Origin: Cyanobium sp. FGCU52
GTDB taxonomy: Bacteria; Cyanobacteriota; Cyanobacteriia; PCC-6307; Cyanobiaceae
NCBI GenBank assembly: GCA_024958715.1
Contig: JANWUS010000007.1
Location: 1 to 37,858 of the forward strand
DNA length: 37,858 nucleotides
Direction: 5' to 3'
Shown here: piece after piece, positions 4,736-16,226 of the stretch
Numbering within the stretch: the first letter of the stretch is position 1
Layout: every line of letters begins with the position of its first letter
Program-made: the position numbers and the translations under genes
Notes under the pieces: generated by a model
Database searches by the model: none
Told to the model about the DNA's origin: nothing
Seen by the model: only the letters and a program-made list of their open reading frames with translations

Positions 4736-6304
4736 GTGGAGCTGTTGCAGTCCCGTGCCGCTCTGGCCGAGTGGCGTCGCCGCACGGCCGGTTCGCCGCT
4801 CCATTTCGTGCCCACGATGGGCGCCCTGCACGCAGGCCATGCCCGGCTGATCGAACGGGCAGGGCAGTCCCTCGCGGGTTGTTCCCCTCCGAGGGTGCTG
4901 GTGAGCATCTTCGTGAACCCGCTGCAGTTCGGCCCCAACGAGGATTTCGAGCGCTATCCCCGCGATCTCGAGGCCGATGCCGATCTGGCCGCCGCCGCCG
5001 GTGCCCATGCCCTGTTCGCGCCCACGCTTGATGAGATGTACCCCGAGGGGGCGGAGGGCCTGACCCGGGTGCAGCCGCCCCTGCCCCTGCAGGCCTCCCT
5101 GTGCGGCATCACCCGCCCCGGTCACTTCGACGGGGTGGCGACGGTGGTGTGCCGGCTGTTCGCCCTGGTGCGGCCCGATCGGGCCTTCTTCGGCGAGAAG
5201 GACTGGCAGCAGTTGCTGATCCTGCGCCGGGTGGTGGCCGACCTGGGTCTGCCGATTGCGCTGCGGGGGGTCGCCACGGTCCGCGAGGGCGACGGCCTGG
5301 CCCGCAGTTCCCGCAACCGCTATCTGGATTCCGATCACCGCCGCGCCGCCGCCGCCCTGCCGGGCGCCCTGCGTGACGCCCGGGCGGCCCATGGCCGCGG
5401 AGTCTGCGAGGCCGAGCTTCTGATCGGCGGGGTGAGCGCAGCGCTGGAGCGCTCAGGCCTCGCCGTGGATTACGTGCAGCTGGTGGAGGCGCATACATTG
5501 AGGCCGCTGCGGCGGGTGCAGGGACTGGCCCTGCTGGCCGCGGCGGTCCATTGCGGCCCCAGCCGCCTGATCGATCACGTGTTCCTGATGTCCCGCCCTC
5601 CGATCGTTGCCATCGACGGCCCCGCCGGTGCCGGCAAGAGCACCGTGACGCGCGCCTTCGCACGGCAGCTGGGTCTGGTCTACCTCGATACCGGGGCCAT
5701 GTACCGCGCCGTCACCTGGTGGGTGCAGCGTCAGGGGGCCGATCCGGGCGATGCGGCCGCCGTGGCCCCCTGGCTCGAGGGCCTGGATCTTCGCCTCGAA
5801 GCGGGGCCCGACGGCGAGCAGCGGGTGTCGGTCAACGGCCACGAGGTCACCGGCGCGATCCGCAGCCCGGAGGTCACGGCTGCGGTCTCGGCCGTGGCCG
5901 CCCATGCCTGCGTGCGGGAGGCCCTGACACGCCAGCAGCAGGCCCTGGGCGAGCGGGGCGGGCTGGTGGCCGAAGGCCGCGACATCGGCACGGCCGTGTT
6001 CCCCGACGCCGAGTGCAAGGTCTTTCTCACCGCCACGGTCGCTGAGCGGGCCCGGCGCCGCGCCCGGGATCTGGCCGAGCGCGGCTTCCCGGTGCCCTCC
6101 CTGGCGGAGCTGGAGGCCCAGATCGCCGAGCGCGATCGGCTCGATTCCACCCGGGAGGTGGCGCCTCTGCGCCAGGCGGAGGATGCGGCCGAACTGGTCA
6201 CCGACGGCATGGCGATCGAGGCGGTGATCGAGGCCCTGGTGGCCCTGTTCCGTGAGCGGGTGCCTGAGGAGGCCTGGCCCGGGGCTCAGCGGGACTCCGC
6301 CTGA
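4736..6304 (+). CDS. panC/cmk: Bifunctional pantoate-beta-alanine ligase / cytidylate kinase
   Basis: This is a fused two-enzyme protein of 522 aa. Residues 1-284 are pantothenate synthetase (pantoate + beta-alanine + ATP, for coenzyme A), with FVPTMGALHAGH (HxxH nucleotide-binding motif at 32-35), FVNPLQFGPNEDFERYPR, FFGEKDWQQL and RSSRNRYL. From Met285 the chain is CMP/dCMP kinase, with P-loop GPAGAGKST (about 295-303), YLDTGAMYRAV and VAEGRDIGTAVFP. This fusion is characteristic of cyanobacteria. The GTG at 4736 places the HxxH motif at the usual distance from the N terminus and has a GGGGGAG ribosome-binding site about ten bases upstream. A GTG at 4700 lies inside the preceding terminator. 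The 3' end overlaps the convergent phosphatase gene by 19 bases. Confidence 0.95.
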   Translation: MELLQSRAALAEWRRRTAGSPLHFVPTMGALHAGHARLIERAGQSLAGCSPPRVLVSIFVNPLQFGPNEDFERYPRDLEADADLAAAAGAHALFAPTLDEMYPEGAEGLTRVQPPLPLQASLCGITRPGHFDGVATVVCRLFALVRPDRAFFGEKDWQQLLILRRVVADLGLPIALRGVATVREGDGLARSSRNRYLDSDHRRAAAALPGALRDARAAHGRGVCEAELLIGGVSAALERSGLAVDYVQLVEAHTLRPLRRVQGLALLAAAVHCGPSRLIDHVFLMSRPPIVAIDGPAGAGKSTVTRAFARQLGLVYLDTGAMYRAVTWWVQRQGADPGDAAAVAPWLEGLDLRLEAGPDGEQRVSVNGHEVTGAIRSPEVTAAVSAVAAHACVREALTRQQQALGERGGLVAEGRDIGTAVFPDAECKVFLTATVAERARRRARDLAERGFPVPSLAELEAQIAERDRLDSTREVAPLRQAEDAAELVTDGMAIEAVIEALVALFRERVPEEAWPGAQRDSA

Positions 6305-6798
6305 GGGGCAGCGGGGCGCAGCTCCTCCAGCAGGCCCTTGCAGGCGTCCTCGAGCAGATCGAGCACGTGTTCGAAGCCCTCCTCGCCGCCGTAGTAGGGA
6401 TCGGGCACCTCCTCGATCCCGGCCCTGCCGGCGTGGCTGAGCAGGGGGCGGATGTGGCCGGCATCGAGCCCGTGGGCGGTCGCCAGCCTCCGCACCTCGG
6501 CGAGGTTGTCGGCGTCCATCGTCAGCACGTGATCGAAGGCCTCCAGGTCGGCGGCCTCCAGCTGGCGGGCCCGACTGGGCAGGGGGATCCCCCGGCGGGC
6601 CGCCGCCTCCCGCATCCGGGCGTCGGCCCGCTTGCCGGTGTGCCAGCCTGCGGTGCCCGCGGAATCCACCAGGAAACCCTCCTCCAGCCCTTCGCTGGCC
6701 AGCAGATCCAGAAACACCCCCTCCGCGGCCGGGGAGCGGCAGATGTTGCCGAGGCAGACGAACAGCACCCGCACGGGCTGCTGGGGGGAGGTGGTCAT
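6286..6798 (-). CDS. Low-molecular-weight protein tyrosine phosphatase
   Basis: The 170-aa protein has the CX5R phosphate loop right after the first strand: VLFVCLGNICRSP, with nucleophile Cys15 and Arg21. The late DPYYGGEEGF segment supplies the general-acid Asp of the LMW-PTP family. It removes phosphate from phosphotyrosine through a cysteinyl-phosphate intermediate in the cytosol. The start codon overlaps the cpcF stop (ATGA, 6795-6798), so it is translationally coupled to cpcF and probably the last gene of the cpcE-cpcF transcript. Its 3' end overlaps the end of panC/cmk on the other strand. The family is certain; a role in phycobilisome phosphorylation is inference from the coupling. 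Confidence 0.93.
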   Translation of the reverse strand: MTTSPQQPVRVLFVCLGNICRSPAAEGVFLDLLASEGLEEGFLVDSAGTAGWHTGKRADARMREAAARRGIPLPSRARQLEAADLEAFDHVLTMDADNLAEVRRLATAHGLDAGHIRPLLSHAGRAGIEEVPDPYYGGEEGFEHVLDLLEDACKGLLEELRPAAPQAESR

Positions 6799-7463
6799 GG
6801 GGTGGGGGCGGAAGCGGTGAGCCGCTGCAGGGCCAGCTGGGCTCGCTGGCACACAACACAGGTGTCTTCGACTGTGGGATCGGCCAGCTGATCCAGGGCC
6901 GTGCGGATCCTGCCGTGGAGCGGGGAGCCTGCCAGCGAGACGCCGAGGCCTTCCAGCGCCACCGCCACGGCGTAACGCACCACCCACTCCCCATCGGCCA
7001 GGCTGCGTTCGAGTGCCGCCAGGGCACGCTGGCGGATCCCCTCCTGCTCGCCGGGGGGGAGGGCCTCGCAGCGCAGCTGCCCAAGCCCGCGGGCCGCCGC
7101 CCGCCGCACGCTGGGGCCGATGTCGTTGCCCAGGGCCGACTCCAGCAGCTCCAGGCCACGCACGTCGCCGATGCCCGCCAGGGCGCGCACGGCCCAGGCG
7201 CGCGCCCCGTAGTTGTGTTCGTCGAGCCCCTCCAGCAGGGGGGACACGGCCGCCGGCCCGATCGCGATCAGCCCGTCGACCGCCGCCACGGCCGCGCCGG
7301 GGTTGTTGTAACCGAGCAACTCCACCAGGCAGCCGATGGCCTCGGCCTCCATGTCCGGGGCGGCGGCCGCCGCCAGGGCCTGGGCCGCCGCCAGCAGCTC
7401 CTGGGCCGTGCCCGCCTGCTGCACCGCTTCGATCAGGGTCGTTCGTGTCATCGCGCTCGTCAT
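6795..7463 (-). CDS. cpcF: Phycocyanin alpha-subunit phycocyanobilin lyase, CpcF subunit
   Basis: This is the second subunit of the heterodimeric CpcE/CpcF lyase, which attaches phycocyanobilin to Cys84 of alpha-phycocyanin. The 222-aa chain is a run of HEAT-like (PBS lyase) helical repeats, for example GLDEHNYGARAWAVRALAGIG and LGNDIGPSVRRAAARGLGQL. A C-terminal segment with two Cys (DTCVVCQRAQLAL) is also present. It lies 40 bases after cpcE on the same strand, as usual, and overlaps the phosphatase start by four bases. A second ATG at 7451 would remove four residues. The E/F assignment rests on order and length, and the pair downstream of cpcBA is the classical arrangement. Confidence 0.93.
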   Translation of the reverse strand: MTSAMTRTTLIEAVQQAGTAQELLAAAQALAAAAAPDMEAEAIGCLVELLGYNNPGAAVAAVDGLIAIGPAAVSPLLEGLDEHNYGARAWAVRALAGIGDVRGLELLESALGNDIGPSVRRAAARGLGQLRCEALPPGEQEGIRQRALAALERSLADGEWVVRYAVAVALEGLGVSLAGSPLHGRIRTALDQLADPTVEDTCVVCQRAQLALQRLTASAPTP

Positions 7464-7503
7464 CGCGGCGTCATGGGTCGGGAATGGGGCAACAGCACGG
7501 ACA

Positions 7504-8337
7504 TCAGAGGAGCTCGTCCATCACCGCCAGCACCGCCTCGGCGCCGGGTTCCCCCTGCCCCTGCTCCACCAGGCCCCGCAGGGCGATCAGCTTGAGGCTG
7601 TTCTCGGCCAGGGTGCCACGGATCGGCTCAAGCGCCGGCCTCCAGCCCACCGCCCCCAGATCCATCAGAGCCGCCCGCCGCACCTGCAGCTGGGGATGCA
7701 GGAGCAGCTCGAGCAGGCTCTCCCCCCAGCGCCGCTCGCCGGTGAGCTGCAGCAGGGCGCGGGCCGCGGCCGCCCGGATGATCGGCCGCTCATGGTCGTG
7801 GAAGGGAACGATCACCTCCACCACGGCGGGGCGAGGGCTGCCGATGTCGCCGAGGGCCTCGATCAGGGCCTCGCAGGGTTCCCGCAGTTTCGGGCTGTTC
7901 TCCCGTGGGGCCCCGGCCCCTTGCGGTCCACTGGCCAGCCGGGCGCAGAGCGGCTCCACCGCCTCCTCGGCCCGCAGCTGCCCCAGCGCCCGGGCGGCCG
8001 CTTCCCGCAGGCCGTCATCCTCGTCCTCGAGGGCTGCCAGCAGGTCGGGGATCGCTTCCGGCCGGCCCAGCTTGCCGAGGGCACGGGCCGCATTGCGGGC
8101 TACGGCATTGGTGCCCACGCCGATGCTGGGATCCTCGGGCTGGCGCTGGCGCAGGGCCGTGCACAGCAGGGGCACAGCCTCGGGATGGCTGCTGCGCATC
8201 CGGCCCAGCCACCAGGCGGCGTAGTACTGCAGCGAGAGGTCCTCGCTCTGGCGCAGACGGCGCAGGGCCTCTGCCTCGCTGATCGGCTCTCCGGCCCCGG
8301 TCAGCGGGATCGAGGCATCGGCATCGGAGGGGGCCAT
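7504..8337 (-). CDS. cpcE: Phycocyanin alpha-subunit phycocyanobilin lyase, CpcE subunit
   Basis: This is the larger partner of the CpcE/CpcF alpha-phycocyanin lyase, 277 aa and made of HEAT-like repeats. Segments such as LSLQYYAAWWLGRMR (near the N terminus), VARNAARALGKLGRPEAIPDLLAALEDEDDGLREAAARALG and RPIIRAAAARALLQL show the expected alternating helices. The ATG at 8337 is chosen over a TTG at 8352. It lies after the cpcA terminator (8417-8444) on the same strand, so expression needs read-through or a separate start in the 8338-8416 gap. This is a usual way to keep lyase levels far below phycocyanin. Confidence 0.94.
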   Translation of the reverse strand: MAPSDADASIPLTGAGEPISEAEALRRLRQSEDLSLQYYAAWWLGRMRSSHPEAVPLLCTALRQRQPEDPSIGVGTNAVARNAARALGKLGRPEAIPDLLAALEDEDDGLREAAARALGQLRAEEAVEPLCARLASGPQGAGAPRENSPKLREPCEALIEALGDIGSPRPAVVEVIVPFHDHERPIIRAAAARALLQLTGERRWGESLLELLLHPQLQVRRAALMDLGAVGWRPALEPIRGTLAENSLKLIALRGLVEQGQGEPGAEAVLAVMDELL

Positions 8338-8416
8338 GGCCCGGTGCAACAAGCGTGGCCACCGATCGTGCCACCGCGCCCCATGCCATCCGTGCGTTGA
8401 GGGGAGGGAGCGTCAC

Positions 8417-8444
8417 AAAAAAAGGGCCCCTGTGGGGGGCCCTT
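8417..8444 (-). terminator. Terminator of cpcBA, copy near cpcE
   Basis: On the minus strand AAGGGCCCC and GGGGCCCT form a GC-rich stem with a short loop, followed by a run of seven T. It lies 23 bases after the cpcA stop and precedes cpcE. Confidence 0.85.
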
Positions 8445-8467
8445 GAAGGATCGACGGAGATCGAGGC

Positions 8468-8956
8468 TCAGGAGAGAGCGTTGATGGCGTAGTCGATGTA
8501 GTTGTTGGCGATGACGCCAGGGTCGCCGGCGATGCCGTGGTTGGCCTTGATGTAGTTGAGGGCCTCGACGTACCAGGAGGGGGAGAGGTCGAAGGCGCGG
8601 TTGATCTCGTCGAGACCGGCGATCAGGTACTCGTCGAGGGGGCCGGTGCCACCAGCCACCAGGGAGTAGGTGATGTGACGGAGGTAGTAACCGATGTCAC
8701 GGGCGCACTTGGCCTTGCCGCGGGCGTCGGAGGCGAAGTTGGCACCCTGCTGCTGGGTGGTGTAGGGATACTTGTTGTAGACGGCCTGGGCAGCGCCGTT
8801 GACGAGCTCGTCGGCCTTGGCGGTGAGGGCCTTGGCAGCCTCAAGGGCGTTCTTGGCGCGCTCGAAGCGACCGAAGGCAGCGTTCAGCTCGGTGTTGGAG
8901 AGAAAGCGGCCCTGGGAATCGGCGGCTGCGACGGCCTCGGTGAGGGGGGTCTTCAT
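8468..8956 (-). CDS. cpcA: C-phycocyanin alpha subunit, copy near cpcE
   Basis: This 162-aa phycobiliprotein is the light-harvesting alpha subunit of the rods, carrying one phycocyanobilin on Cys84 (KCARDIGYY, the substrate site of CpcE/F). The N terminus [19 protein letters not shown] and the C-terminal [10 protein letters not shown] are typical of CpcA. A single chromophore Cys and no second bilin site indicate plain C-phycocyanin. The start at 8956 is the family start; an upstream in-frame extension to 9109 reads into cpcB in another frame. It follows cpcB by 40 bases. The protein is identical to that of the copy at 11010-11498. Confidence 0.98.
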
Positions 8957-8996
8957 GAGAGTGGAGTGAAGTAAGTGGAACCGAAGGGAGTCGCGA

Positions 8997-9515
8997 TCAG
9001 GCGACGGCGGCAGCGGCGCGATCGAAGTAGGTGCCGATTTCGGACAGCAGGGCGGAGCAGTCACCGGGGGTGATGCCGTTGCGATCGTTGACGATCGCAA
9101 CGGCTGCATCCTTCATCTTGCGGATGCCTTCAGCCACGGAAGCGCCGGGGACGCCGAGGGCCAGGTAGGTTTCGCGAAGGCCGTTGAGGCAGCGGTCCTC
9201 GAGCACCGAAGCGTCACCGGTGAAGGTGGCGTAGGTGATGTAGCGGAGAACGATCTCCATGTCGCGCAGGCAGGCGGCCATGCGGCGATGGGTGTAGGCG
9301 TTGCCGCCGGGGGCGATCAGAGCGGGCTGCTGCTCGAAGAGTTCGCGAGCGGCGTTGGTGACGATCTTGGAAGCGTTGGAGGTGATGCGGTTCACCGCAT
9401 CCATGCGCTTGAAGCTGTCAGCGACAACCGACGACAGAGCGTCGATCTGACCAGCGTTGAGGAATTCGCCGCGGGCATCAGCCTGCGCAACGACCTTGGT
9501 GAAGGCGTCGAACAT
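8997..9515 (-). CDS. cpcB: C-phycocyanin beta subunit, copy near cpcE
   Basis: This 172-aa beta subunit of phycocyanin has both bilin cysteines: Cys82 (MAACLRDM) and Cys153 (GDCSALLSE), the latter the target of CpcT-type lyases. Asn72 in the GGNAY segment is the residue methylated by CpcM in this family. A clear ribosome-binding site, AGGAG, lies eight bases before the ATG, and this leader is shared with the other copy. It is first in a two-gene cpcB-cpcA unit closed by a terminator. The protein is identical to that at 11539-12057. An 11-base inverted repeat (9078-9101) lies in the coding region. Confidence 0.98.
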
Positions 9516-9907: not shown

Positions 9908-10759
9908 TCAGTTCACCGGGGTGACGCTGGCCACCCGACCGCCCTGGCGGTGGATGCTCTGCTGAGCTTCCAGCAGCTTGTCGAACGGCACGAAGCGCAC
10001 GGTGTTGCTGCGCTTGTGCAGGCGGTAGTTGTTGAGGCCACTCACTTCCACACGATAGACGCGCGCCTTCTGACCGATCCCCTGGGCCATCTGGGTGATC
10101 GAACTGGCGGCGATGTTCGCCGGCTGCACCGAGGAGGCACCAGCGGCCGGGCTCACCACCGGAACGGCCCGGTTCTGGTGAAGCGCTGGGCCCAGGCGGA
10201 AGTTGGTGCCCGCACTGTCACCTTTCACCGAGGCGGCGGCCCCACGCGCGAGCTGCATCAGCCAGGAGAACTGACGCCCCTGTTGGCCGGAGGAGTAATC
10301 CCAGCCATGCAGATAAGGCACCACCTCTTCACCGAAACGCTGCTGATACTCGTCGCTGTCGATGTAGGAATCGATCTCGGCGTCGTAGCCCTGTTCCTGG
10401 AGGATGGTGAAGTGGTGCAGCATCTCGGCCTTGTTCTGGGGCGCGCGACCCAGCAGATGCTTGAAGTTGAGTTCGATGAAGTGATAGGGGTTGCAGTTCT
10501 CGAAGAATCGCGACCTGTACAGCCCGCTCTTGGCCACCATCCGCACCAGTTCCCTCACGCTGAGATAGCCGTTGCGGAACAGGGATTCGGCCCCATCCAG
10601 GCGCTCGCTCTCCATCACATACTGATGGCCCAGCACCTGGCGATAGACGGCGCGGATGATGACGCTCTTGTCCTGGTCGGACGCATTCGACCAGTTCTCC
10701 TTGTTGCGGTCATTGGCGAACCGCTCGATGCCCAGGTAGGGCGCGTTGACCAGAGTCAT
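9908..10759 (-). CDS. cpcC: Phycobilisome rod linker, second CpcC
   Basis: This 283-aa rod linker holds phycocyanin hexamers together in peripheral rods. A PBS-linker domain spans about 15-150 (VIIRAVYRQVLGHQYV, NPYHFIELNFKHLLGRAPQNKAE in two parts, EIDSYIDSDEYQQRFGE). A CpcD-like domain ends the protein (about 225-283, ARVYRVEVSGLNNYRLHKRS). It is a paralog of the protein at 12744-13589 with clear differences, mainly in the linker between domains and the N-terminal third (for example VMESERLDGAESLFRNG here). The start at 10759 (MTLVNAPYLG) matches the paralog. It lies between the two cpcBA copies. Two CpcC types imply rods of at least two or three hexamers, one linker being proximal and the other distal; which is which cannot be told here. 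Confidence 0.95.
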   Translation of the reverse strand: MTLVNAPYLGIERFANDRNKENWSNASDQDKSVIIRAVYRQVLGHQYVMESERLDGAESLFRNGYLSVRELVRMVAKSGLYRSRFFENCNPYHFIELNFKHLLGRAPQNKAEMLHHFTILQEQGYDAEIDSYIDSDEYQQRFGEEVVPYLHGWDYSSGQQGRQFSWLMQLARGAAASVKGDSAGTNFRLGPALHQNRAVPVVSPAAGASSVQPANIAASSITQMAQGIGQKARVYRVEVSGLNNYRLHKRSNTVRFVPFDKLLEAQQSIHRQGGRVASVTPVN

Positions 10760-11009: not shown

Positions 11010-11498
11010 TCAGGAGAGAGCGTTGATGGCGTAGTCGATGTAGTTGTTGGCGATGACGCCAGGGTCGCCGGCGATGCCGTGGTTGGCCTTGATGTAGTTG
11101 AGGGCCTCGACGTACCAGGAGGGGGAGAGGTCGAAGGCGCGGTTGATCTCGTCGAGACCGGCGATCAGGTACTCGTCGAGGGGGCCGGTGCCACCAGCCA
11201 CCAGGGAGTAGGTGATGTGACGGAGGTAGTAACCGATGTCACGGGCGCACTTGGCCTTGCCGCGGGCGTCGGAGGCGAAGTTGGCACCCTGCTGCTGGGT
11301 GGTGTAGGGATACTTGTTGTAGACGGCCTGGGCAGCGCCGTTGACGAGCTCGTCGGCCTTGGCGGTGAGGGCCTTGGCAGCCTCAAGGGCGTTCTTGGCG
11401 CGCTCGAAGCGACCGAAGGCAGCGTTCAGCTCGGTGTTGGAGAGAAAGCGGCCCTGGGAATCGGCGGCTGCGACGGCCTCGGTGAGGGGGGTCTTCAT
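11010..11498 (-). CDS. cpcA: C-phycocyanin alpha subunit, copy near cpcD
   Basis: This encodes the same 162-aa protein as 8468-8956, with the single bilin Cys84 in KCARDIGYY. It follows cpcB by 40 bases and ends at its own terminator. Since the two copies give the same protein, the duplication changes dose and timing of expression, not pigment type. It lies downstream of the cpcC-cpcD block and upstream of the second cpcC. Confidence 0.98.
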
Positions 11499-11538
11499 GA
11501 GAGTGGAGTGAAGTAAGTGGAACCGAAGGGAGTCGCGA

Positions 11539-12057
11539 TCAGGCGACGGCGGCAGCGGCGCGATCGAAGTAGGTGCCGATTTCGGACAGCAGGGCGGAGC
11601 AGTCACCGGGGGTGATGCCGTTGCGATCGTTGACGATCGCAACGGCTGCATCCTTCATCTTGCGGATGCCTTCAGCCACGGAAGCGCCGGGGACGCCGAG
11701 GGCCAGGTAGGTTTCGCGAAGGCCGTTGAGGCAGCGGTCCTCGAGCACCGAAGCGTCACCGGTGAAGGTGGCGTAGGTGATGTAGCGGAGAACGATCTCC
11801 ATGTCGCGCAGGCAGGCGGCCATGCGGCGATGGGTGTAGGCGTTGCCGCCGGGGGCGATCAGAGCGGGCTGCTGCTCGAAGAGTTCGCGAGCGGCGTTGG
11901 TGACGATCTTGGAAGCGTTGGAGGTGATGCGGTTCACCGCATCCATGCGCTTGAAGCTGTCAGCGACAACCGACGACAGAGCGTCGATCTGACCAGCGTT
12001 GAGGAATTCGCCGCGGGCATCAGCCTGCGCAACGACCTTGGTGAAGGCGTCGAACAT
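11539..12057 (-). CDS. cpcB: C-phycocyanin beta subunit, copy near cpcD
   Basis: This encodes the same 172-aa protein as 8997-9515, with bilin sites Cys82 and Cys153 and Asn72 for methylation. The leader for 50 bases (AGGAG ribosome-binding site) is shared with the other copy apart from one extra G. Beyond that its upstream region is different, and it is separated from cpcD by a terminator. It therefore has its own promoter, very likely a strong one. Confidence 0.98.
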
Positions 12058-12459: not shown

Positions 12460-12705
12460 CTACTTCTTGTGGGCCTTCTTGCGGGGCTCGGTGGCCTCAC
12501 TGGTGGTTCCGGTGACGGCCACGCCGGTGACCTTGCCCCCCAGGCGATGGACGAGGCGCAGGGTCTCGTTCATGCGCGTGAAGGGAACCTTCATCACGGT
12601 GTCGGCGGTGCGCACGTAATCGTTCTGGGCCAGGCCCGTCACCGAGATGGTGACCTGACGATCACTGCTGAAGCTGGTGCCACGGGTGCCTGCGGAAACC
12701 TTCAT
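12460..12705 (-). CDS. cpcD: Phycobilisome rod-capping linker CpcD
   Basis: This 81-aa cap linker sits at the distal end of the rods and stops their growth. The single CpcD domain (about 15-70) shows VTISVTGLAQNDYVRTADTV and VPFTRMNETLRLVHRLGGKV, related to the C-terminal domain of CpcC. The tail is short, Thr/Glu-rich and ends in basic residues (KKAHKK). It lies 38 bases after cpcC on the same strand and closes a cpcC-cpcD unit with its own terminator. Confidence 0.94.
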   Translation of the reverse strand: MKVSAGTRGTSFSSDRQVTISVTGLAQNDYVRTADTVMKVPFTRMNETLRLVHRLGGKVTGVAVTGTTSEATEPRKKAHKK

Positions 12706-12743: not shown

Positions 12744-13589
12744 TCAGTTGACGGGGGTGAGGCTGACCACGCGTCCGCCCTCGCGGTGGATCTGCTGCTG
12801 ATACTGCAGCAGCTTGTTGAAAGGGATGAAGCGCACGCGGTTGCTGCGCTTGTGCAGGCGGTAGTTGTTGAAGCCCGAGATCTCCACGCGGAACACCCGG
12901 CCCTCCTCACCGGCACCGACGCCTTGGCGGGTGATGCCATCGGCGGGCACGGCCCGGAAGGTGCTGCCCTTGGTGTTGGGGCTGACCACCGGCAGGGGCT
13001 TTTCGGCGTGGACGGCGGGATTCAGTCGCGACTGGGTCTTGAGGAGGTCGCCCCGGACGGAGGCGCCCACACCACGGGCCAGCTGCAGCATGTAGCCGAA
13101 CTGCAGGCCCTGCTGCCCCTTGGAGTAGCCGAAGCCATGGAGGTAGGGAACCTCCTCCTCACCAAAGCGGTTCTGGTACTCAGCGCTGTCGATGTAGGAA
13201 TCGATCTCGGCGTCGTAGCCCTGCTCCTGGAGGATCGTGAAGTGATGCAGCATCTCGGCCTTGTTCTGGGGCGCCCGGCCGAGCAGATGCTTGAAGTTCA
13301 GCTCGATGAAGCGGTAGGCGTTGCAGTTCTCGAAGAACTTGGCCCGGTACAGCCCGCTCTTGGCCACCTGGCGCACGAACTCCCGAACACTGAGGTAGCC
13401 GCGCTTGAACAGCGACTCGGGGCCCTCGAGGCGCTCGCTCGCCATGATGTACTGGTTGCCGAGAACCTGCTTGTAGACGGCACGGATCAGGGCCGCCTTG
13501 TCGTTCTCGGTGGCGTTGGACCAGTTTTCCTTGTTGCGATCGCTGGAGAAACGCTCGATGCCCAGGTAGGCAGCGTTGGCGAGTGTCAT
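12744..13589 (-). CDS. cpcC: Phycobilisome rod linker, first CpcC
   Basis: This 281-aa rod linker has an N-terminal PBS-linker domain (about 15-150, IRAVYKQVLGNQYI, NFKHLLGRAPQNKAEMLHHF, EIDSYIDSAEYQNRFGE) and a C-terminal CpcD-like domain (about 222-281, VFRVEISGFNNYRLHKRS, IPFNKLLQYQQQIHREGG). The start at 13589 (MTLANAAYLGIERF) is shared with the paralog at 9908-10759; the frame is open to 14150 but that part reads antisense into the next gene. It is the first gene of the cpcC-cpcD unit. Its upstream region carries ATCGTTACA, as does the other cpcC. Confidence 0.95.
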   Translation of the reverse strand: MTLANAAYLGIERFSSDRNKENWSNATENDKAALIRAVYKQVLGNQYIMASERLEGPESLFKRGYLSVREFVRQVAKSGLYRAKFFENCNAYRFIELNFKHLLGRAPQNKAEMLHHFTILQEQGYDAEIDSYIDSAEYQNRFGEEEVPYLHGFGYSKGQQGLQFGYMLQLARGVGASVRGDLLKTQSRLNPAVHAEKPLPVVSPNTKGSTFRAVPADGITRQGVGAGEEGRVFRVEISGFNNYRLHKRSNRVRFIPFNKLLQYQQQIHREGGRVVSLTPVN

Positions 13590-13850: not shown

Positions 13851-14282
13851 ATGGCATCCAACGACCTGCCCGCCGCGACAGCGGCGGATCCGACCGCCTG
13901 GCCAAGGCGACTCGCCGAGCAGCTGCGCACACTCTCCGAGATGGGCGAGACTCTGACCTATCGGTTGCTGGAACTCGAGGAGCGGCTTGCGGCCCAGGAA
14001 CTGAGGTTGGCTCCGCTTCTGGAGCGCCAGGGAGGCCTCGAAGCCGCCGCGGCGGAAGACATGGAACTGCGGCTGGGCGATACCGAGGAGAGGCTGGGGC
14101 GGATCGAGGCGGTGCTGAACGGAATGGAACGGCCGGGGGGTGCCCGCCACCTCCAGCCTCTCCAGCCCTCCGCCGCCCCGTTCTGCCTCTCCGGCCCCAT
14201 CCAGCAGGAGCGACGGCCGAGCGAGGAGGACCCCTTCCTCGAGGAGGAGGAGCAGCCCTTCATGGACGAGCTCCCGGCCTGA
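13851..14282 (+). CDS. Coiled-coil hypothetical protein in the phycobilisome cluster, 143 aa
   Basis: No family is recognised. A long helical stretch (about 20-92) is rich in Glu, Leu, Ala and Arg with heptad-like spacing (YRLLELEERLAAQELRLAP, LRLGDTEERLGRIEAVLNG), so a coiled coil is likely. The C-terminal third is Pro-rich and then strongly acidic (DPFLEEEEQPFMDELPA). There is no signal peptide or membrane segment. It is the only plus-strand gene between the two blocks of phycobilisome genes, divergent from cpcC and convergent with the cpcL-like gene, ending at a strong hairpin. A link to phycobilisomes is suggested by position only. Confidence 0.7.
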   Translation: MASNDLPAATAADPTAWPRRLAEQLRTLSEMGETLTYRLLELEERLAAQELRLAPLLERQGGLEAAAAEDMELRLGDTEERLGRIEAVLNGMERPGGARHLQPLQPSAAPFCLSGPIQQERRPSEEDPFLEEEEQPFMDELPA

Positions 14283-14284
14283 GT

Positions 14285-14316
14285 CCCGGAACCCCTGCGC
14301 TCGCAGGGGTTCCGGG
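14285..14316. terminator. Strong hairpin between convergent genes
   Basis: CCCGGAACCCCTGC and GCAGGGGTTCCGGG form a perfect 14-pair stem around a GCTC loop, two bases after the stop of the coiled-coil gene and 12 bases before the stop of the cpcL-like gene. It has no long T-run but probably terminates both transcripts. Confidence 0.6.
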
Positions 14317-14328
14317 TTGGGCTCCGGC

Positions 14329-15099
14329 TCAGCCGGCGCCTGCGGTGCTCAGCATCACGCCGGCGGTGTAGATCACAAAGCCCGTGAGCAGGAAGCCTCC
14401 GGTGGCCACCACCCCCTGCCAGATCTTGCGGGCTGCGGGAGAGGGAGCATCCGCCAGCCAGGCGGGACGGGGGAGACTGAAGCCGCCGCTGGGAACCCAG
14501 CCGCTGCCGCGACCGGCCGGAGCCCGGCGGGCGATCGTTTCCCGCCAGTAGGCGTCGTAGCGGGGAGCCTGCTGGTTGAAGGGAAGATCCCCCACGGCCC
14601 TGCCGCCCAGCACCCGGGCGCGCTGATAGGGCACGGTGTTGGTGCCGAAGGCGTCGAGGTACTCCTGGGAATTGAGCAGATGGTCGACGAGGCCCGGCAG
14701 CCCCTGCTCGGCGATCAGGATCGAGAGGGCGATCCTTTCCTTGTCGCCGTGCACCGAACGGCCCAGCACACGACCGACGATCTGGTCGACGACGCGGTAG
14801 TTGCTGTTGCAGCGGTAGAAATCGTTGCGGAACTTGGAGGAAAGCAGCAGGCCCCGCACAAACTCCCGCGCGTTGATCTGGCCGCTGCGCAGCTGCGATT
14901 CCAGAACGGGCTCCCGGTCGGCCTTGAAGGCATGGAAGAAGATCTGGCGATAGGCCTGCTCGATCAGTTCGTCGGGGCTGGTGGCGTTCCTGCCGATCGT
15001 CTGATTCACCTGCCGGGGGGATTCCTCGTTGCCGACGGCAATCGTGCGCACGCGGGCGTTCTGGCTCCGGGGAGGAGTGGAGAGCAACGGCAGGCTCAT
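14329..15099 (-). CDS. cpcL: Rod-core linker with C-terminal membrane helix, CpcL (CpcG2) type
   Basis: This 256-aa linker opens with MSLPLLSTPPRSQNARV, a typical CpcG N terminus. A PBS-linker domain covers about 40-165 (EQAYRQIFFHAFKADREP, INAREFVRGLLLSSKFRNDF, YRVVDQIVGRVLGRSVHGD). The last 32 residues contain a hydrophobic segment of about 21 residues (roughly 229-249, GVVATGGFLLTGFVIYTAG). Soluble CpcG1 proteins lack such a tail. The membrane-tailed form, CpcG2/CpcL, is known to tether a rod-only phycobilisome near photosystem I and NDH-1. It follows cpcT on the same strand by 133 bases. Domain and tail are seen; the photosystem I role is inferred from the family. The start at 15099 is preferred over an open extension to 15336 that overlaps cpcT. 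Confidence 0.88.
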   Translation of the reverse strand: MSLPLLSTPPRSQNARVRTIAVGNEESPRQVNQTIGRNATSPDELIEQAYRQIFFHAFKADREPVLESQLRSGQINAREFVRGLLLSSKFRNDFYRCNSNYRVVDQIVGRVLGRSVHGDKERIALSILIAEQGLPGLVDHLLNSQEYLDAFGTNTVPYQRARVLGGRAVGDLPFNQQAPRYDAYWRETIARRAPAGRGSGWVPSGGFSLPRPAWLADAPSPAARKIWQGVVATGGFLLTGFVIYTAGVMLSTAGAG

Positions 15100-15232: not shown

Positions 15233-15835
15233 TCAGGAGGCGAAGGCCTCGTACCAGGAGGCAGGAATCTCTCCGCTGTAGTCGTCCGTTCGCTCGAACT
15301 GGAAGGGTCCGGCCAGGGATCCCCACAACTGCTCATGGGTCTGGGGATCGTGGCCGCGGTCGATGGTGCGCATGCCGGAGGGATCGATCTCGAAGCTGCT
15401 CACCAGGTAGGCGGTGGCGCCCTTGCGCTCCACCAGGCAGCGGCAGCCCGGTTCCACCTCCCCCACGAACCCATCCCCCCGTTCCTGCACCACGTAGGTG
15501 CAGCCTTCCAGGGGCCTGAGGTCGGCTGCGCTGATCGCCGCCCGTTTGTCGACATCCTCCACCGCACCCCAGAAGCGCTCGGCGTCGTGCAGCGACTGGT
15601 TGTGGATGATCAGCTGGCCGTCGCGCCGTTCCGGCCGCAGCACCCGGATCCGGTAGGGGGCCACAGGGTTGATGGCATACGACTGTTCCAGCAGCAGCGA
15701 CCCGGGCTCCAGCTGGGGGAGGGGCCTGAACTTGACCAGGATGTGGGCGTAGAGCGGCGGGTTGTCGAAGGCCTGGCTCTGGTTGCTGAACCCGGCGCTC
15801 AGCAGCTGCACCAGCCGTGCGAGGGAGTGATCCAT
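15233..15835 (-). CDS. cpcT: Phycobiliprotein lyase CpcT (CpeT/CpcT family)
   Basis: This 200-aa calycin-fold lyase is of the CpcT family, whose members attach phycocyanobilin to Cys153 of beta-phycocyanin. Recognisable segments are the N-terminal LVQLLSAGFSNQSQAFDNPP, HILVKFRPLP, EQSYAINPVAPYRIRVLRP, GCTYVVQERGDGFVGEVEPGCRC and the late PQTHEQLWGSLAGPFQFERT. CpcT is chosen over CpeT because only phycocyanin genes are present. It begins ten bases after the stop of the 77-aa gene and precedes the cpcL-like gene, so these form one probable operon. Confidence 0.93.
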   Translation of the reverse strand: MDHSLARLVQLLSAGFSNQSQAFDNPPLYAHILVKFRPLPQLEPGSLLLEQSYAINPVAPYRIRVLRPERRDGQLIIHNQSLHDAERFWGAVEDVDKRAAISAADLRPLEGCTYVVQERGDGFVGEVEPGCRCLVERKGATAYLVSSFEIDPSGMRTIDRGHDPQTHEQLWGSLAGPFQFERTDDYSGEIPASWYEAFAS

Positions 15836-15844
15836 GGCCGCAAC

Positions 15845-16078
15845 CTACAGACCCAGCAGCCGCACACGAAACTCGGCCACCTGCCGGGCCATGGCCGGGT
15901 CCTCCACGACGAAGGGGTGGTCGGTGAGCTCCTCGAGCATTCGCTCCAGCTTGTCGGCCGCCGTCAGGCCGTGGTCGGGATGGCGGCGCTGATGGGCGGC
16001 CCAGGCTTCATCGAACGCCAGGGCGAAGCTGTCGGCATTGGCGAACTGCTGGTCTTCGCGGAAGGGGGAGCGGGCCAC
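15845..16078 (-). CDS. Small hypothetical protein upstream of cpcT, 77 aa
   Basis: No family is recognised. It is a hydrophilic, mostly helical protein (FALAFDEAWAAHQRRHPDHG, DKLERMLEELTDHPF) without Cys, signal peptide or membrane segment. It lies four bases after the stop of the 47-aa gene and nine bases before the cpcT start, so it is cotranscribed with both. Tight spacing and normal codon use make it a real gene. Its placement suggests a part in bilin attachment or phycobilisome assembly, which is inference only. Confidence 0.72.
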   Translation of the reverse strand: MARSPFREDQQFANADSFALAFDEAWAAHQRRHPDHGLTAADKLERMLEELTDHPFVVEDPAMARQVAEFRVRLLGL

Positions 16079-16082
16079 GGCG

Positions 16083-16226
16083 TCAGCGATCGGCGGCCTC
16101 GGTGCTGGTGTCGGAGCTGTTGGAGTGGCCGTTCAGATGCTTCTCACAGGCCAGGGAGGAACTACTCGCCAGCAGCGATGCGGCGAGCAGCAGGAAGTGA
16201 ACCAGGCGGTTCGTGAGGTGTTTCAT
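16083..16226 (-). CDS. Secreted mini-protein upstream of cpcT, 47 aa
   Basis: The first 27 residues (MKHLTNRLVHFLLLAASLLA, then SSSSLAC) form a basic start, a hydrophobic core and a Ser/Ala end, reading as a signal peptide. SLAC could also be a lipobox with Cys27 as the lipidated residue, although four Ser before it make this uncertain. The mature part would be only about 20 residues (EKHLNGHSNSSDTSTEAADR), polar and acidic. Its stop is four bases before the start of the 77-aa gene. I believe similar short peptides occur in related picocyanobacteria, but I cannot check. Function unknown. Confidence 0.6.
   Translation of the reverse strand: MKHLTNRLVHFLLLAASLLASSSSLACEKHLNGHSNSSDTSTEAADR

Follow-up and report, generated by a model that had tools for sequence, protein, structure and literature searches.

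The cpcGII gene of the picocyanobacterial phycocyanin rod cluster most likely encodes a CpcL-type rod-membrane linker that holds a core-less rod on the thylakoid and feeds photosystem I, a reading to which we give a probability of about three in four. The linker would probably plug a blue light-collecting rod straight into the photosynthetic membrane. This reading is drawn from the sequence, namely from the linker domain, the predicted helix and its conservation, a soluble CpcG partner, the lack of phycoerythrin among the genes found and an FNR with a CpcD-like start; from these, we infer rod assembly, membrane insertion and photosystem I as the partner. The window, the whole stretch of 37,858 nucleotides that was analysed, is the entire contig C7 of a 3.48 Mb genome. 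Its initial annotation was right in kind, as the gene is CpcL-like and its product membrane-tailed, but wrong in lineage.

Along the minus strand, the gene order is tRNA-Phe, a 47-aa ORF, a 77-aa ORF, cpcT, the cpcL-like gene, a convergent 143-aa ORF, cpcC, cpcD, cpcB, cpcA, cpcC, cpcB and cpcA, with the following features:

16083..16226, minus strand: 47-aa ORF, with a signal-peptide-like start in our reading
15845..16078, minus strand: 77-aa conserved ORF; by its position, probably unk1 of Six et al. 2007
15233..15835, minus strand: cpcT (CpeT/CpcT family), the upstream neighbour; PF06206, E 5e-52
14329..15099, minus strand: cpcGII/cpcL-like rod-membrane linker, 256 aa; ATG at 15099, stop at 14331-14329; start common to relatives
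14620..14982, minus strand: PBS linker domain PF00427, aa 40-160
14341..14439, minus strand: predicted C-terminal membrane helix, aa 221-253; all 24 aligned sequences have W227 and G234
14285..14316, minus strand: perfect 14-bp inverted repeat with a 4-base loop, between cpcL and the convergent ORF; hairpin z -4.57, no T run
13851..14282, plus strand: 143-aa convergent ORF; by its position, probably unk2 of Six et al. 2007
12744..13589, minus strand: cpcC rod linker, PF00427 and CpcD domain
12460..12705, minus strand: cpcD-like rod cap (Pfam)
11010..12057, minus strand: cpcB (11539-12057) and cpcA (11010-11498), copy 1 (Pfam)
9908..10759, minus strand: second cpcC rod linker (Pfam)
8468..9515, minus strand: cpcB and cpcA, copy 2 (Pfam/NCBIfam scan)

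The gene was initially said to share its direction with cpcT and two small genes, and these are indeed present as the 77-aa and 47-aa ORFs upstream, both on the minus strand. The 77-aa and 143-aa ORFs have no family match in Pfam or NCBIfam, and a 46-aa piece of a small ORF has none in NCBIfam. When 113 loci were searched at E 1e-4, the sole homologue of the 47-aa ORF outside the window was in L047 (74%). The hairpin at 14285-14316 is a possible transcript end; a terminator scan of the window returned two sites, against a mean of 1.2 in shuffles, and the hairpin is not among them. A promoter scan found none. The two cpcBA pairs (8468-9515 and 11010-12057) have identical Pfam match scores, suggesting that they are near-identical copies.

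The ORF (15099-14329, minus strand) translates into 256 residues starting with MSLPLL. As annotated, the protein has a CpcG-like N terminus and a PBS-linker domain (Pfam PBS_linker_poly, aa 40-160, E 3e-37). This single PF00427 domain is followed by a variable spacer and a hydrophobic C-terminal helix, which is predicted from the sequence to replace the hydrophilic end of CpcG. In the AlphaFold2 model, based on 51 aligned sequences (mean pLDDT 71.3, pTM 0.55), the linker domain is helical and a long helix spans aa 221-253, with block pLDDT values of 80, 89 and 89 across aa 221-250; the stretches of low confidence are aa 11-38, 161-169 and 196-208. CpcG chains occupy the top ranks of a Foldseek search with this model, and Synechocystis CpcL (8hfq) is found at rank 11. 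In the CpcL-phycobilisome structure, the membrane part is unresolved (PMC10322944). The CpcL protein of Cyanobium sp. FGCU6 is 95% identical to that of the window.

The most hydrophobic 19-mer lies at aa 230-248, with a Kyte-Doolittle (KD) value of 1.74. This is a moderate hydrophobicity and not rare by itself, since it was matched somewhere in 2,285 of 20,000 whole-protein shuffles. We take the tail as real because it is conserved across 95 distinct picocyanobacterial sequences, and not on hydrophobicity alone. In these sequences, which include that of the window, the KD of the C-terminal 19-mer ranges from 1.45, a cut-off of our own choice that excludes the clearly tailed relative L022 (KD 1.31), to 2.67, whereas the tails of the 17 soluble picocyanobacterial CpcG in the tree do not exceed 0.83. 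Together with the AlphaFold2 helix, these values confirm the hydrophobic C-terminal segment of the initial annotation. The mean fraction of the commonest residue over the 95 sequences rises from 0.35 in the spacer to 0.60 immediately ahead of the helix and 0.63 within it, with 0.77 for the domain. R224 and K225 directly precede the helix, and no basic residue lies within or past it; such a charge pattern would fit a cytoplasmic N terminus. Among the linker-rich genomes of the family (at least three linker matches), at least 57 of 63 have a match extending to query residue 246 or further, which serves as a proxy for the tail, and one of the remaining six, G114, has a tailed protein (L167).

Two positions inside the helix, corresponding to residues 237 and 240 of the window (14380-14391, minus strand), are occupied in a paired manner. 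Counted by alignment column, glutamate and arginine occur together in 42 of the 95 sequences, neither occurs in 53 and a single one in none, in a set that leaves L022 outside and whose members are mutually related, not independent cases. The state changes eight times on a quick tree of the 95 sequences, and the window linker has L and G at these positions. The i, i+3 spacing would allow an intrahelical salt bridge between the two residues. The E/R pair within 42 of the 95 tails could also point to an extra rod-core linker, with a hydrophobic end that packs on the core or the rod and not in the membrane, and so could the one sighting of CpcGII in WH8102 phycobilisomes (PMC2246261). We nevertheless consider such packing improbable, as the tail occupies the place of the hydrophilic end of CpcG and, beyond the E/R pair, helix positions 228-248 hold just seven charged residues across the 95 sequences, all of them near the ends. 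Moreover, CpcGII was undetected in the phycobilisome fractions of four strains (PMC2246261), as expected of a membrane-held linker. Given the WH8102 sighting, a membrane-held CpcGII may also be present in core-type phycobilisomes.

A profile search of the contigs found eight PF00427 matches in the source genome. Those in the window belong to the two CpcC proteins and the CpcL-like protein, while those outside comprise a third, CpcC-like match on C38, three in a 1072-aa frame on C41, which we read as ApcE, and a CpcG on C68. The initial annotation regarded the gene as the only rod-attachment linker and proposed a genome search for a second, soluble CpcG. The first statement stands for the window but not for the genome, since that search does find a second CpcG (G000:C68), which is soluble, with a tail KD of 0.43. 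Seven PF00502 (phycobiliprotein) stretches were scanned: the NCBIfam cut-offs were passed for ApcA, ApcB, CpcA and CpcB (twice), and two further stretches, one ApcA-like and one ApcB-like, fall below them. None of the seven stretches in the genome reaches the NCBIfam cut-off of CpeA or CpeB, so that the description of the organism as phycocyanin-only holds as far as found. The genome has three cpcB copies, including a lone cpcB at G000:C38:64313. A 392-aa FNR frame on C55, the NCBIfam name of which rests on a 144-aa piece, has a CpcD-like N terminus that scores 22.9 bits, below the Pfam cut-off of 27. An orange carotenoid protein gene lies on C41, with no CpcG-type match nearby. With CpcC and CpcD linkers, an FNR bearing a weak CpcD-like N terminus and no phycoerythrin gene found, a rod-only membrane antenna would be feasible.

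To place the linker domain, we built a main tree from the linker part alone, with 102 hand-picked ORFs out of 217 in the family (30 picocyanobacterial tailed, 17 picocyanobacterial soluble, 21 other tailed and 34 other soluble rows). In the quick tree, the tailed picocyanobacterial rows form one side of a branch with support 91, and the picocyanobacterial tailed and soluble rows together are split from all others with support 98. The careful tree of 100 rows, from which the long-branched L177 and L168 were left out, gives the tailed group 95/91, and on it the tail state has to change three times. In a rooted tree of 56 rows (every second of the 100 rows plus six outgroup rows, with long outgroup branches), support is 99/96 for a clade uniting the tailed and soluble linkers of picocyanobacteria, and 100/99 for a clade of the tailed ones. 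Canonical CpcL does not form a single clade there and remains unresolved near the base, so that the rooted tree is silent on whether the tail is old or gained. The window linker scores 224 bits against Synechocystis CpcG and 158 bits against Synechocystis CpcL. The sequence of the linker domain places it in the CpcG lineage of picocyanobacteria, where it groups with the soluble CpcG.

Forcing 28 tailed picocyanobacterial and 19 canonical CpcL rows into one clade costs 68 log-likelihood units (AU p = 0.00118, an optimistic value because the group was named after the quick tree had been seen). Simple orthology with the Synechocystis-type CpcL is thus rejected on the linker domain (AU p 0.0012), and the identity with that lineage assumed at first is not borne out. 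The initial annotation had taken a grouping with soluble CpcG as telling against its own proposal, and this grouping is, literally, what the linker domain gives. Orthology alone fails, but since the tail is conserved, a CpcL-like function remains the best reading. Ongoing gene conversion with cpcGI is unlikely, as the tailed rows form one group; a single early replacement is still conceivable. L177, the third CpcG of G061, is tailed and evolves fast; the same genome has one soluble and one further tailed CpcG, and L177 is perhaps the cpcGIII of Six et al. 2007.

The tails were compared by profiles after trimming off letters from the domain end. The picocyanobacterial and canonical CpcL tails score 16.8 against each other, a value equalled by 4 of 150 column shuffles (2 of 200 shuffles were as good when the tails were left untrimmed, with the domain-end letters included). 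The canonical tail scores 30.5 against the tail of the Nostocales cluster, equalled by none of 150 shuffles, and the picocyanobacterial tail 12.9 against the same tail, equalled by 43 of 150, the Nostocales-cluster tail being represented by two sequences. When 29 non-picocyanobacterial tails were scored against the picocyanobacterial tail profile, 25 did not stand out and four did: L140, L144 and L137 beat all 100 of their own decoys, L144 by 0.2 bits and L137 by 0.1 bits, with L140 and L144 near-identical, and L227 beat 98 of 100. With 29 tries, four such matches are suggestive, short of proof. These four matches and the identical architecture are what a true Synechocystis-type CpcL orthologue, misplaced in the tree through divergence, would lead one to expect. 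We judge such an orthologue very improbable in view of the AU test, with its reservation about the naming of the group, the branch (starred in the tree) that sets the picocyanobacterial tailed and soluble linkers apart and the 95/91 support of the tailed group in the careful tree. A clean independent gain of the tail, which we favoured at first, was dropped, as a few other tails match the profile and the canonical rows are unresolved near the root. The tail on this CpcG-lineage linker may be a gain, a capture from another CpcL or a remnant of an older ancestor that already had one.

The surroundings of the gene differ among picocyanobacteria. Of the 113 loci examined, which include some species fetched twice, differ in flank length and count one locus with a soluble CpcG (L166), 64 have cpcT within the fetched DNA. 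In 17, cpcL has an orange carotenoid protein gene 195-210 bp downstream, in the same orientation, and the next gene matches the fatty acid desaturase family; both family calls were made on L060 (cpcL-ocp region, 6001-8742), the other loci being assigned by similarity to it. These 17 loci amount to 15 distinct CpcL proteins, which form one group with support 97 on a tree whose surroundings labels were set by hand. Both kinds occur in Cyanobium sp. Aljojuca 7A6, as L051 (next to cpcT) and L064 (next to ocp). Some genomes have two tailed CpcL whose neighbourhoods differ (next to cpcT, next to ocp or behind cpcA), as seen for L051 and L064, L074, L091 and L105. The adjacency of cpcL and ocp makes joint regulation of quenching and of the photosystem I antenna possible. 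No paper title on this arrangement was found in a literature search conducted at title level and in parts of PMC6479007 and PMC13342260.

In the proposed mechanism, the linker domain would occupy the proximal phycocyanin hexamer just as that of CpcG does, and the C terminus would form a single membrane helix where CpcG has its hydrophilic end. A core-less phycocyanin rod would be held on the thylakoid, with CpcC, CpcD and FNR further out, and would feed photosystem I, either on its own or within an NDH-1/PSI complex that serves cyclic electron flow. By analogy, photosystem I would be the usual partner, which makes it rather unlikely that the membrane anchor serves mainly another one, such as NDH-1 or photosystem II; on the other side stand the NDH-1-PSI-CpcL complexes described for Synechocystis (PMC10322944) and the largely lineage-specific nature of the tail, by which the partner could differ. 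With photosystem I as the main partner, we tentatively advance a wider scheme, which we hold to be possible and no likelier than that: picocyanobacteria would own a CpcL made of their own-lineage CpcG and a lineage-specific or captured tail, which would build a core-less photosystem I antenna missed through its loss from phycobilisome preparations; the paired E/R switch would tune docking; and the cpcL-ocp clade would co-express the linker with the orange carotenoid protein, strong light both quenching core phycobilisomes and moving rods to photosystem I. Should cpcGII encode a membrane rod linker in almost all phycobilisome-bearing picocyanobacteria, which rank among the major primary producers, a second, photosystem I-feeding antenna would be general in them, and the failed detection of CpcGII in phycobilisome fractions would be explained.

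The window gene was already known under a different name, as the cpcGII of Six et al. 2007 (PMC2246261). In that study, mass spectrometry of the phycobilisome fractions of four strains detected CpcGI and not CpcGII, for which the authors considered that CpcGII might be weakly expressed or not part of the phycobilisome fraction; they omitted CpcGII from one tree because it was undetected, and they state that it had been seen earlier in the WH8102 phycobilisome fraction (PMC2246261). The words 'hydrophobic', 'CpcG2', 'CpcL' and 'Kondo' are absent from the text of PMC2246261, in which the sole 'transmembrane' refers to unk3. The membrane tail was unremarked at this first description, and it offers an explanation for the missing CpcGII in the 2007 fractions. 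The basic reading is already in print, since papers of 2023 and 2026 name such freshwater genes cpcG2 or cpcL. In PMC10161378, the second cpcG of five freshwater strains is read as cpcG2 by analogy with Synechocystis, and two of its strains, CCY9618 and CCY0621, correspond to our tailed loci L058 and L078. PMC13342260 reports that a homology search found cpcL in Cyanobium NIVA-CYA 375, and suggests two phycobilisome forms; PMC9415938 calls CpcL by a predicted C-terminal helix and lists it in 42 of 65 genomes; and PMC4139726 describes two cpcGII copies on one Baltic contig. New here are the placement of the linker domain, the comparison of tail profiles, the paired E/R and the cpcL-ocp arrangement in one sister clade.

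As compared to the cpcGII of marine Synechococcus (PMC2246261), which likewise has cpcT and unk genes as its neighbours in the rod cluster and a cpcGI located elsewhere, there is no known difference within the gene. Synechococcus WH5701 (L085) falls inside the tailed group in the tree of 95 tailed sequences and equals the window in gene order from the 77-aa ORF on, although the 47-aa ORF was not found there. Synechocystis CpcL (CpcG2; 8hfq) shares the CpcG-like N terminus, the one PF00427 domain, the C-terminal membrane helix and the presence of a soluble CpcG paralogue, but forms a separate clade on the linker domain. Conversely, the soluble picocyanobacterial CpcG (cpcGI; C68 in the same genome) shares the linker-domain lineage but has a hydrophilic C terminus, often ending in VPYRSIGR. 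L217 and L220, from Nostocales-type cpcG clusters, resemble the window gene in being membrane-tailed linkers nested among soluble CpcG; we take them to be of the Anabaena CpcL type. Their tail, however, matches the canonical CpcL tails (0/150), whereas the picocyanobacterial tail does not match theirs (43/150). The cpcGII gene is a further example of a membrane tail and a linker domain that seemingly differ in their histories.
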